Assembly (NCBI GenBank): GCA_016191845.1
Contig: JACPVF010000012.1
Location: forward strand, 248,001-312,000
Reading direction: 5' to 3'
Length of the DNA stretch: 64,000 bases
Origin: Chloroflexota bacterium
GTDB taxonomy: Bacteria; Chloroflexota; Anaerolineae; Anaerolineales; Villigracilaceae
Shown here: piece after piece, positions 15,546 to 51,436 of the stretch
Layout of the letters: every line of letters starts with the position of its first letter
How positions within the stretch are numbered: the stretch's first letter is position 1
Made by a program: the position numbers and the translations under genes
Notes under the pieces: generated by a model
What the model was told of the DNA's origin: nothing
Database searches by the model: none
The model's input: only the letters and a program-made list of their open reading frames with translations

Positions 15546-15562
15546 AGCGGGACGATTATAAT
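15535..15562. promoter_or_regulatory. Shared palindromic -10 for two divergent, leaderless genes
   Basis: ATTATAAT (15555-15562) reads as TATAAT on both strands. On the + strand the hexamer at 15557-15562 sets the start at 15569, the A of the aminotransferase ATG. A poor -35 (TTGTTG, 15535-15540) lies inside the MFS coding region. On the - strand the start is about 15548, three bases before the MFS ATG. Confidence 0.65.
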
Positions 15563-15568
15563 GCCGCC

Positions 15569-16714
15569 ATGCCTTCCCTTCGCTCCCAATTCCTGCTCGA
15601 TCCCACCATCACTTTCCTCAATCACGGCTCTTTCGGGGCCACGCCCAAACCCGTCTTTCGCGAGTATCAACGCTGGCAGCGCGAACTGGAGCGCCAGCCC
15701 GTGGAATTTTTGGGCCGCCGCTACAATGACCTGATGAAATCTGCCCGCGCCGCCCTGGCCGATTACCTCGGCACGCAGGCCGATAACGTGGTCTTTGCCC
15801 AAAACGTGACCATCGCCCTCAACATCGTGGCCCGTTCGCTCGACCTCGGCCCGGGCGACGAGGTCCTCACCACCAACCATGAGTATGGCGCGCTCGACCG
15901 CACCTGGCGTTTCCTCTCCAGAGAGCGAGGCTTTGCCTACATCAACCAGACCATTCCCGCACCGCTCACCACTGCCGCAGATTTCGAAGCGGCTTTCTGG
16001 CGCGGCGTCACCCCGCGTACGCGCGTCATCTTCCTCAGCCACATCACCAGTCCCACGGCGCTGGTCTTTCCCGTTGAGCGCATCGTCCGCCGCGCGAGAG
16101 AAGCGGGCATCCTCACCGTGGTGGATGGTGCCCACGCGCCGGGCCAGCTTCCGCTTGCGCTCGATTCGCTCGGCGCCGATTTCTATGGCGGCAACCTGCA
16201 CAAGTGGCTGTGCGCCCCCAAGGGCGCGGGGTTTTTGTATGCCCGCCCCGAGGTCCAGCGCCTGCTCAAACCGTTGGTTGTCTCCTGGGGCTACGAATCC
16301 GAAACACCGAGCGGCTCGCTCTTCGTGGATCACAACGAATGGTGGGGCACGCGCGATGTCTCCGCTTTCCTGACTGTTCCCACTGCCATCGAATTTCAGC
16401 GCCAACATCATTGGGATGAGGTGCGGGCGTCCTGTCACGAACTGGCGGTGGACTCCCAGCGGCGACTCTGCGCCCAAACGGGACTCGCCCCCCTGCACAC
16501 CGACGCCGAGGCCTGGTTCCGCCAAATGTTCGCCGCCCCGCTTCCAGCGGATACCGATATCGCCGCCCTCAAGGCACGCCTGTACGATGAGTTTCGCATC
16601 GAAGTTCCGTTGATCGATTGGAACGGAAACAAGCTGATCCGCGTCTCTATTCAAGCCTACAACTCCCGCCGCGACGTGGATCGCCTGCTGCACGCCCTCG
16701 AAATCTGCCTGTGA
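15569..16714 (+). CDS. PLP-dependent class V aminotransferase, isopenicillin N epimerase-like
   Basis: The 381-aa protein matches the CefD-like branch: N-terminal LNHGSFGATP, a cofactor region with NHEYGALDRTW, and the Schiff-base lysine in GGNLHKWLCAPKGAGFLY (near residue 212). Members act on varied amino-acid substrates, including as cysteine desulfurase-like or epimerase enzymes, so the substrate is open. No beta-lactam pathway genes are near. The start codon coincides with the predicted transcription start (leaderless). Confidence 0.87.
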   Translation: MPSLRSQFLLDPTITFLNHGSFGATPKPVFREYQRWQRELERQPVEFLGRRYNDLMKSARAALADYLGTQADNVVFAQNVTIALNIVARSLDLGPGDEVLTTNHEYGALDRTWRFLSRERGFAYINQTIPAPLTTAADFEAAFWRGVTPRTRVIFLSHITSPTALVFPVERIVRRAREAGILTVVDGAHAPGQLPLALDSLGADFYGGNLHKWLCAPKGAGFLYARPEVQRLLKPLVVSWGYESETPSGSLFVDHNEWWGTRDVSAFLTVPTAIEFQRQHHWDEVRASCHELAVDSQRRLCAQTGLAPLHTDAEAWFRQMFAAPLPADTDIAALKARLYDEFRIEVPLIDWNGNKLIRVSIQAYNSRRDVDRLLHALEICL

Positions 16715-49352: not shown

Positions 49353-50015
49353 ATGAAACGTTGGTTATTACTGGTCGTGTTGTTGCTTTCGGGATGCGGC
49401 GTTCCCCAGCCGCCGCCCGCGGAGGGACAGGTGGGTCCGACCGCCTTTATCTCCGAGTCCTATCCGACTGCGCAGGCGCAGTCCGTTTCTCCCAATCAGG
49501 TCGCCAGCGGGGTCAACGTGAGCGTGACCCGCGCCTGGCAGGACGGCAAACAGGTCAATGCGGATGTGTGCTTCACCCTGCCCGACAGTTCGGATTGGTC
49601 CATCTACAGTGCCAGCCTGCAATACGGTGACACGGTCTCGGCTGAGTTCGGCACCACGCTGGTGAGCATGCAGCCCGCGGGGGATGGCGCTTCGGGTCAG
49701 CGTTGTGACACGCTCAGCTTTTACGTCCCGCCTGATGCCGTGTTGACCAACGTGGTGGTGACCATTGACTCGATCGCGGCCCTTCCGCGCGAAGGCGATT
49801 ACTGCAACCTGTACATGCCCAAGATCCAGCAAGCCATGCAGGAGCGAGGCATCGCCATCACCTTGGAATGCGTCGATGTGAACGGGATCCCCACCATGCA
49901 GATCACCAGTTTCCCGCCTGACATGACGCAGGAGCAGGCCGAACAGATCGTGTACAGCGACGAGTTCTACACGATCAAGGGCCCGTGGACGTTCACCTTC
50001 AGTCTCGGTCAGTAA
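49353..50015 (+). CDS. Lipoprotein of unknown function
   Basis: The 220-aa protein has a lipobox (LLLSGCG) and AAAGGAG before the ATG. The mature part is beta-rich (VSVTRAWQDGKQVNADVCFTLPD) with four Cys that could pair. I do not recognise the family. It ends in a terminator, so it is separate from tyrS. Confidence 0.75.
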   Translation: MKRWLLLVVLLLSGCGVPQPPPAEGQVGPTAFISESYPTAQAQSVSPNQVASGVNVSVTRAWQDGKQVNADVCFTLPDSSDWSIYSASLQYGDTVSAEFGTTLVSMQPAGDGASGQRCDTLSFYVPPDAVLTNVVVTIDSIAALPREGDYCNLYMPKIQQAMQERGIAITLECVDVNGIPTMQITSFPPDMTQEQAEQIVYSDEFYTIKGPWTFTFSLGQ

Positions 50016-50023
50016 AATGCCAG

Positions 50024-50051
50024 GCCGCCACTCGATGTGGCGGCTTTTTTT
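50024..50051 (+). terminator. Intrinsic terminator of the lipoprotein gene
   Basis: GCCGCCAC-TCGAT-GTGGCGGC followed by seven T. Confidence 0.92.
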
Positions 50052-50060
50052 AAATCCTGT

Positions 50061-50089
50061 TTCTGAAGAAAAGAAATATTGGGTATAAT
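50061..50089 (+). promoter_or_regulatory. tyrS promoter
   Basis: TATAAT (50084-50089) with a poor -35 (TTCTGA, 50061-50066, 17-bp spacing). The predicted start is 50096, the A of the leader-peptide ATG. Confidence 0.72.
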
Positions 50090-50095
50090 GGGCAC

Positions 50096-50143
50096 ATGCT
50101 TGAATTGAAGTGCAAGTCCTACTATTATTATTCCCACCCCTAG
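50096..50143 (+). CDS. Tyrosine-rich leader peptide of tyrS (leaderless)
   Basis: A 15-codon ORF encodes MLELKCKSYYYYSHP, then TAG. Codons 9-12 (50120-50131) are TAC TAT TAT TAT, four tyrosines in a row. The ORF begins at the predicted transcription start and lies 81 bases before the tyrosyl-tRNA synthetase ATG, with an intrinsic terminator in between. This is the layout of amino-acid attenuators such as pheST or trp leaders: ribosomes pausing at Tyr codons when Tyr-tRNA is low would change the folding of the RNA. No Shine-Dalgarno exists or is needed if the mRNA is leaderless. Function is inferred from position and content. Confidence 0.82.
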   Translation: MLELKCKSYYYYSHP

Positions 50144-50200
50144 TTTTTCCGCGGTGGAGTATTGAACGCGCCCTTCACCATCGCGGGCGCGTTTTTGTTT
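50134..50200 (+). promoter_or_regulatory. Transcription attenuator of tyrS (competing helices)
   Basis: Segment 1 CCACC (50134-50138) can pair with GGTGG (50153-50157). Segment 2 CCGC-GGTGGAG (50149-50159) can instead pair with segment 3 CTTCACC (50173-50179) and GCGG (50183-50186). Segment 3 overlaps the terminator hairpin AACGCGCCC (50165-50173) / GGGCGCGTT (50185-50193), which is followed by TTTTT-G-TTT. Helices 2-3 and the terminator cannot form together. Ribosomes stalled on Tyr codons would cover segment 1 and free segment 2 for antitermination. Ribosomes at the stop codon would cover segment 2 and allow termination. Confidence 0.78.
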
Positions 50201-50224
50201 GCCATTTTTTGTCGGGAGGTTCCC

Positions 50225-51436
50225 ATGAATATTGATGAACAAGTCGAACTTTTGATGCAAGGCACCGAGTACGGCGACGAGGACTTGAAGAAGGCCATGA
50301 CCGCCGAACTGCGTGAGCGCCTGATCCAGGCCCAGAAAGAGGGCCGACCTCTGCGCGTGTATTGCGGTTACGACCCCACGTCCACGGACCTGCACCTGGG
50401 ACACACCATCACCATGCGTAAGTTGCGCCAGTTCCAGGATCTGGGACATGAGGTCACCTTCCTGATCGGGAGCTACACCGCGCTGGTGGGTGACCCTTCC
50501 GACAAGAACAAGGCCCGCCCGATCCTGACCCAGGAGCAGGTGGCCGCCAATGGCAAGACCTACGCCGACCAGGCTTTCCGTGTGCTTGATCCCGCGAAGA
50601 CGAAGATCCGCGAGAACGGCGAGTGGCTGTCCAAGCTGACACTGGTGGACCTGATCCGCCTGGGGCAGAATTTTACCGTGCAGCAATTCCTGGCGCGCGA
50701 GAACTTCGCCAACCGTCTGGAAAAGGGCGAGCCGATCTTCCTGCATGAGACCTTCTACGCTTTGATGCAGGGCTACGACGCGGCTGCCATGGAGACCGAC
50801 ATCCAGGTGGGCGGCACGGACCAGTTGTTCAACATCATTGTGGCGGGACGCAAGCTGCAAGAGGCCCTCGGTCAGAAACCGTTGGTGGGCGTCATCTGCG
50901 GCATTTTGCCTGGCACCGACGGGGTCCAGCGCATGTCCAAGTCGATGGGCAACATCGTGCCGATCAACACCAACGCCGACGACATGTATGGCAAGGTCAT
51001 GTCGGTGCCTGATGCGGCCATGAGCAAATATTATCGGCTGGTGACGCGCTTCTCGCCGCACGAGATCGATGACATCGAGAAGACGGTGGCATCCGGCGCA
51101 ATGCATCCGCGTGACGCCAAGATGAAGTTGGCGCGCGAAATCACCAGCATCTTCTACGGCGATGCGGCGGCTAATGCGGCGCAGGAAAACTTCATCAAGA
51201 TGTTCCAGCAGAAGGAGGTCCCCGACGAGATGCCCGAATACAGCCTCAAGGCTGGCGAGACCGTGCTGGATGTGATCCTCGCGGCGGGTATGGCTGAGAG
51301 CAAGAGCAAGGCCCGCGGCCTGATCGACCAGAAGGGCGTTCGTTTGGACGGCGAGACGCTCGAACGCGGTGACGTTCCCTTCCCACACCCTGGCGTGCTG
51401 CAGGTGGGCAAGCGGCGCTTCCTGCGTGTCAAATAA
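50225..51436 (+). CDS. tyrS: Tyrosyl-tRNA synthetase, TyrZ (type II) form
   Basis: The 403-aa protein has the HIGH-type motif LHLGH in STDLHLGHTITM (near 57-61), the Tyr-binding region VGGTDQLFNII and the RMSKS loop in VQRMSKSMGN. It also has a C-terminal S4-like RNA-binding domain (about 340-403). KMSKS rather than KFGKT places it in the TyrZ branch. The start at 50225 follows GGGAGG by five bases; the ORF opens earlier at a TTG within the attenuator, which is rejected. It is probably regulated by the leader peptide. Confidence 0.96.
   Translation: MNIDEQVELLMQGTEYGDEDLKKAMTAELRERLIQAQKEGRPLRVYCGYDPTSTDLHLGHTITMRKLRQFQDLGHEVTFLIGSYTALVGDPSDKNKARPILTQEQVAANGKTYADQAFRVLDPAKTKIRENGEWLSKLTLVDLIRLGQNFTVQQFLARENFANRLEKGEPIFLHETFYALMQGYDAAAMETDIQVGGTDQLFNIIVAGRKLQEALGQKPLVGVICGILPGTDGVQRMSKSMGNIVPINTNADDMYGKVMSVPDAAMSKYYRLVTRFSPHEIDDIEKTVASGAMHPRDAKMKLAREITSIFYGDAAANAAQENFIKMFQQKEVPDEMPEYSLKAGETVLDVILAAGMAESKSKARGLIDQKGVRLDGETLERGDVPFPHPGVLQVGKRRFLRVK

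Follow-up and report, generated by a model that had tools for sequence, protein, structure and literature searches.

In the pheST leader of E. coli (PheM) and in the trp and his leaders, a short ORF with codons for the cognate amino acid is combined with protector, antiterminator and terminator helices, and the leader ORF has a 5' UTR with a Shine-Dalgarno sequence. Like the gene discussed here, pheST serves a tRNA synthetase. The T-box (RF00230) controls synthetase genes through uncharged tRNA, which it binds directly and without any need for translation. PMC1262725 mentions pheST as an attenuator, predicts trpS and leuS attenuators in Streptomyces and reports that conserved RNA structures are lacking upstream of the tyrosine operons of Actinobacteria. 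The uORFC-8-2 motif precedes cysS in Rhodobacterales (PMC8632094), so that attenuators are already known or predicted for pheST, trpS, leuS and cysS. Leaderless leader peptides have been described for trpL (rnTrpL) of S. meliloti (PMC7298713) and for the poly-Cys ORFs of mycobacteria (Canestrari 2020, as described in PMC9031893).

The tyrS gene is located at positions 50225-51436 (forward strand, as are the leader features below) of the window, which is the whole stretch of 64,000 nucleotides that was analysed. It starts with ATG at 50225 and encodes a tyrosine--tRNA ligase of 403 aa, which scored 353.3 bits against the NCBIfam tyrS cut-off of 113.8. A terminator of the upstream gene (50022-50051; a 10-pair stem at 50022-50046 with a T run behind it, found by the terminator scan) ends at approximately 50051 and separates the transcription of tyrS from that of the preceding gene. 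Downstream of this terminator, the -10 element TATAAT (50084-50089) is followed after 6 nt by a putatively leaderless 15-codon ORF (50096-50143) that begins with ATG at 50096-50098, encodes MLELKCKSYYYYSHP and stops with TAG at 50141-50143. Four tandem Tyr codons, TAC TAT TAT TAT (50120-50131), are the presumed sensor, and three sense codons lie between the last of them and the stop codon. Segment 1 (CCACC, 50134-50138) is located within the ORF and can pair with 50153-50157. Segment 2 (CCGCGGTGG, 50149-50157) begins 5 nt after the stop codon, and folding, covariation and duplex energies indicate that its partner is either segment 1 or 50178-50186. The 5' arm of the tyrS leader terminator (GAACGCGCCC, 50164-50173) is followed by segment 3 (CCATCGCGG, 50178-50186), the 3' strand of the antiterminator, which overlaps the loop and 3' arm of the terminator, and then by that 3' arm and its T run (GGGCGCGTTTTT, 50185-50196). 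The distance from TATAAT to the T run is 113 nt. A Shine-Dalgarno-like GGGAGG (50214-50219) precedes the tyrS ATG. The TATAAT, the start and Tyr codons of the ORF, and the GGGAGG and ATG of tyrS are all present in the sequence as the earlier note had claimed. Elsewhere in the window, Rfam identified a tRNA gene at 1907-1978.

The earlier note had read this arrangement as ribosome-mediated transcription attenuation of the trp/his/pheST type, specific for Tyr and with a leaderless peptide. Judged from the sequence, it is very probable that tyrS is controlled in this way, and this reading is supported by the elements themselves, their conservation and covariation, and their position before tyrS. 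In the proposed mechanism, the attenuator would sense charged tRNA-Tyr. Transcription would start at A 50096 or within a base or two, and with a start at approximately 50096 the ribosome would begin directly on the leader ORF. When Tyr-tRNA is scarce, the ribosome would stall on the Tyr codons and cover segment 1, segment 2 would pair with segment 3 to form the antiterminator, and polymerase would continue into tyrS. When Tyr-tRNA is plentiful, the ribosome would reach the stop codon with its leading edge over the first part of segment 2, helix 3:4 would form as the terminator, and transcription would end near 50196. Without translation, helix 1:2 should likewise allow termination. With the usual ribosome footprints, the order of the elements, the 5-nt gap from the stop codon to segment 2 and the three-codon distance would fit the trp/his scheme.

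The tyrS leader thus shares its plan of one ORF and three helices with the pheST, trp and his leaders, but the codons are for Tyr rather than for Phe, Trp or His. The predicted trpS and leuS attenuators of Streptomyces, found by comparison, are likewise of the classical type and precede synthetase genes outside Proteobacteria, although they concern other amino acids and another phylum. uORFC-8-2 resembles the tyrS leader in that it lies before a synthetase gene and combines a uORF containing tandem cognate codons with a terminator downstream; it differs in the amino acid (Cys), in the location of the codons (usually positions 14-15, inside the first stem) and in phylum. In S. meliloti trpL and the mycobacterial poly-Cys ORFs, the leader ORF starts at the 5' end of the mRNA, as proposed for the tyrS leader, but these serve Trp and Cys, other downstream genes and other phyla. 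The claim of novelty in the earlier note therefore stands in part: the open-licence literature yielded no earlier description of a tyrS attenuator with a Tyr leader peptide, whereas leaderless leader peptides were already known in S. meliloti and mycobacteria. With the present case, tyrosine would join the amino acids whose own synthetase is under leader-peptide attenuation, and the leader is a clear and testable candidate for a leaderless leader peptide.

We found three alternative helices upon folding the leader of the window. Helix 1:2 (CCACC 50134-50138 with GGUGG 50153-50157; -6.4 kcal/mol, with 21/200 shuffles as good) overlaps the end of the leader ORF; it is weak when folded alone and weaker than the other two. 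Helix 2:3 (CCGCGGUGG 50149-50157 with CCAUCGCGG 50178-50186) consists of nine contiguous pairs at -16.2 (8/200 shuffles as good), and helix 3:4 (GAACGCGCCC 50164-50173 with GGGCGCGUUU 50185-50194) consists of ten pairs at -17.0 (0/200). The latter is the strongest single structure of the leader, and both folding and covariation place this intrinsic terminator between the leader ORF and tyrS. Helix 2:3 and the terminator are mutually exclusive, as helix 2:3 shares 50185-50186 of the 3' arm and encloses the 5' arm. The weak CCACC/GGTGG helix and the terminator stem with its T run were found at the places claimed for them; the bulged antiterminator that had also been proposed (CCGC-GGTGGAG with CTTCACC-N3-GCGG) was not preferred. 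Folding favoured the contiguous helix of 9 bp, and the bulged register was dropped for this nine-pair register, which was also the one counted in relatives. The whole 132-nt leader was not clearly better folded than its shuffles (z -1.11, 28/200), and helix 3:4, with a loop of 11, was absent from the terminator scan because the scan takes loops of up to 8. When the antiterminator was folded singly per locus, 5/100 shuffles or fewer were as good in only 21/95 loci, and this result was not used as support. It is comparison, rather than the scanning of single sequences, that carries the case.

For this comparison, 80 tyrS relatives were kept as the best among 159 encoding stretches from named genomes, and tyrS was found in 135/150 family genomes. 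Among 95 distinct tyrS upstream regions, 60 passed a filter for a -10-like hexamer, a start codon and at least two Tyr codons near the stop; L071 and L075 were removed by eye. The remaining 58 non-identical leaders, comprising that of the window and those of relatives with 73-95% TyrS identity, could be aligned. The T run is present in all 58, which had been cut at the T run, and three sense codons separate the last Tyr codon from the stop in 44 of them.

All three helices exceeded 500/500 shuffles of this alignment in paired cells, double-change cells and covariation score, with shared ancestry uncorrected. Helix 2:3 was paired in 95.4% of cells and showed 15 double-change cells versus 2.9 in shuffles (0/500), helix 3:4 was paired in 97.3% with 8 versus 0.7 (0/500), and helix 1:2 was paired in 70.1% with 21 versus 10.5 (0/500). 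The last is the weakest, as most sequences leave two of its eight pairs unpaired. The true registers of all three helices were better than every slide of 1-3 columns in the percentage of paired cells and in covariation score; for double-change cells, one slide equalled the true register in helix 1:2 (+1) and one in helix 2:3 (-3). The counts of pairs changed on both sides and of pair types were not above shuffles for helix 1:2 (276 and 141 of 500 as high) or helix 2:3 (401 and 365 of 500). Duplexes between own partners were more stable than those between swapped partners in helix 1:2 (-10.93 versus -8.59) and helix 2:3 (-13.97 versus -13.09), with 0/5000 permutations as good in either case and shared ancestry again uncorrected; in single loci, the own partners of helix 2:3 were better than the swapped mean in only 34/58. 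Two natural changes stand out most clearly: GCGATGGTG/CATCATCGC versus GCGGTAGT/ACTATCGC in L014 and its relatives, where segment 1 matches (ACACTGCC), and GCGAGGG/CCCTCGC in L056. As the earlier note had predicted, tyrS relatives thus keep the Tyr run, the stop position and the helices, with compensatory changes.

Because the alignment filter had demanded Tyr, a covariance model of the hairpins only (antiterminator and terminator, from 35 of the 58 rows) was built with no Tyr criterion. This model gave 55 matches in the 84 tyrS loci searched. In 54 of these (the exception being L067), the hairpins were accompanied by TATAAT, 6-7 nt and then an ORF of 14-17 codons with at least two Tyr. The spacing was 6 nt in 52 and 7 nt in 2, the script having tried 6 nt first, and the start codon was ATG in 53 and GTG in 1. 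Tyr accounts for 22.3% of the residues in the leader peptides found through the model and is present at codon -4 in 44/54, at -5 in 50/54 and at -6 in 45/54 leaders (81-93%). These results bear on the simpler explanation that a plain terminator limits basal readthrough into tyrS and that the Tyr-rich small ORF is unrelated and has no regulatory role. That the terminator is the strongest single structure, and that some relatives have neither ORF nor terminator, would agree with it. We nevertheless consider it very unlikely, as at least two Tyr are present in 54/54 readable short ORFs, within the last 9 codons in 53, and as covariation is seen both in the alternative helix 2:3 and between segment 2 and segment 1, which is part of the ORF.

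The genome itself carries T-boxes for other synthetases, which could suggest that tyrS is likewise controlled by a T-box, or by another tRNA- or metabolite-binding RNA, with the ORF being incidental. We found eight T-box matches in this genome (L182-L189), one of them above the gathering score, and the genes after them are pheS, thrS, valS, serS, a TrpB-like gene and three unassigned ORFs. The best matches of these ORFs, all below cut-off, are alpha/beta-hydrolase-like for L183 and alpha-xylosidase-like for L187, with none for L188, which makes them odd T-box targets. T-box matches at E 0.001 or better were found in 61/61 family genomes searched, and above the cut-off in 54/61. At tyrS, no T-box was found in the whole window at the Rfam gathering score or at positions 49900-50300 at E up to 1, where the only match was P9, well below its gathering score. 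Additionally, the 113 nt from TATAAT to the T run compare with 219 model positions for a T-box. Control of tyrS by a T-box or by another tRNA- or metabolite-binding RNA is extremely improbable. The proposed tyrS attenuator would differ from the T-box in direct tRNA binding, although both would control synthetase genes, and leader-peptide attenuation would stand beside T-boxes in one genome.

The leader ORF is predicted to start at the 5' end of the transcript. The TATAAT at 50084 was missed by the consensus promoter scan, as no -35 element reaches the threshold of that scan; its one promoter-like match (50100-50128, 9 of 12) lies inside the leader ORF. The promoter claim rests on the conserved TATAAT, which is identical in 58/58 aligned leaders picked with a TANNNT filter that favours TATAAT, and on its fixed distance to the start, which is 6 nt in 55/58. 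We found 71 TATAAT-N6-ATG sites in this genome versus 8 for a reversed-pattern control. Apart from the tyrS site, 70 remain: ORFs longer than 45 codons begin at 66 of them and ORFs of at most 45 codons at the other 4, with no terminator found downstream of these short ORFs. As such sites are common and mostly open long ORFs, leaderless starts look like a normal mode in this genome, and this supports the reading of the tyrS leader ORF as leaderless, with its ATG at the transcript 5' end. A genome-wide set of leaderless amino-acid attenuators was sought among the same 70 sites and rejected, as none of the 4 short ORFs has an amino-acid run and a terminator; the tyrS leader is the only TATAAT-N6-ATG site in the genome with a Tyr run and terminator. 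A second TATAAT-N6-ATG in the window (15557-15571) opens a long ORF and is likely the start of a leaderless gene.

A review (PMC9031893) describes the mycobacterial leaderless poly-Cys ORFs as regulators of the translation of downstream genes, and the same elements at tyrS might act mainly on translation or mRNA stability rather than on transcription termination. In the aligned leaders a T run comes directly after a GC-rich stem, and the tyrS Shine-Dalgarno sequence is outside the helices, both of which make such an action very improbable compared with attenuation of transcription.

A search of 346 class genomes with the hairpin model, which scored up to 16 candidates in each genome, gave 15 strong matches (E <=2.7e-7), one per genome, and all 15 end 22-65 nt before the tyrS gene of that genome. 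Three weak matches (E about 0.006-0.007) were in other families of the class, and four family genomes (G002, G018, G027 and G043) had no match among the candidates scored, again at most 16 per genome. Diverged versions with the same logic and other sequences were present in distant family members (for example L217, L218, L197, L222, L225 and L230), in 2/9 genomes searched from the same order (L309 and L310) and in L198, L207, L208 and L211 from a further family of the class, in which 9 nt separate a -10-like element from the start. We also observed an inverted repeat resembling GGGGC...GCCCC within the ORF, after the Tyr codons, in L198, L207, L208, L211, L241 and L253 of other families; it is probably the 1:2 helix of these diverged attenuators.

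In total, 143 nonredundant tyrS upstream regions were classified as 79 leaderless with Tyr (calls checked one by one only in part; L071 among them is better read as a gene tail, as described below), 15 tail, 38 without a terminator, 6 other, 3 with a long ORF with fewer than two Tyr and 2 leaderless with fewer than two Tyr. The conservation predicted in the earlier note thus holds in the 58 aligned leaders but is not universal, since the 38/143 regions without a recognisable terminator include the close relatives L088 and L193, and a few of them are cut by contig ends. A terminator preceded by an ORF that stops was present in 105/143 regions. At least two Tyr were found in the last 12 codons in 95 of these 105 in the best frame, versus 12% in a control in which the sequence ahead of the terminator was shuffled in 20 rounds.

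Certain relatives that lack the leaderless ORF have, before tyrS, a gene of approximately 170 aa whose product has a weak, below-cut-off likeness to a bacterial PH domain. This gene was found in 32/100 family genomes and, in a class-sample search that used a relative of the protein and a stricter E-value, in 1/249 genomes, that one being in the family. In the copies at L005:891-1394 and L054:923-1423, for example, the stop codon is immediately followed by interleaved, attenuator-like hairpins and a T run. The tails of such genes read YYARA, YYYSRS, YYSRR and similar, that is, YY or YYY plus three residues. At least two Tyr were present in the last 8 residues in 20/21 genes that lead directly into an attenuator versus 2/13 others (L222 and L234), in which a separate leader intervenes, the attenuator is absent or the gene is elsewhere; these classes were assigned by hand after the tails had been seen. 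Where a separate leader lies between the gene and tyrS, the tail mostly has a single Tyr. Three sense codons follow the last Tyr in 21/21 direct tails, the same distance that the majority of leaderless leaders show. The other 13 genes, too, often have a single Tyr at this position, which may therefore be a trait of the family, and it may be only the doubling of Tyr that goes with the attenuator.

Own-partner antiterminator duplexes were better than swapped ones in the 17 tail loci pooled (0/5000 permutations), and 7/17 singly beat 95% of shuffles. The tree offered 3 independent pairs when restricted to well-supported branches and 5 when every branch was used, and the sign test was not significant (median p 0.5). 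With only 3-5 independent contrasts, the association between tail Tyr and attenuator is suggestive rather than proven. In the TyrS tree, the genus of the window is among tail-mode and leader-lacking relatives. On balance, we lean towards the view that in part of the family the final codons of a full-length protein gene upstream of tyrS form the sensor and that lineages moved between the tail and leaderless modes. Translation of an ordinary protein would then control whether the next gene is transcribed, and switches in which an ordinary gene end acts as an amino-acid sensor would escape searches limited to short ORFs. We found no earlier description of such a tail-mode attenuator in the open-licence literature. 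In L216, the ORF before tyrS has an acidic tail that ends in DEEEDEY, together with similar hairpins, and is perhaps another captured gene end.
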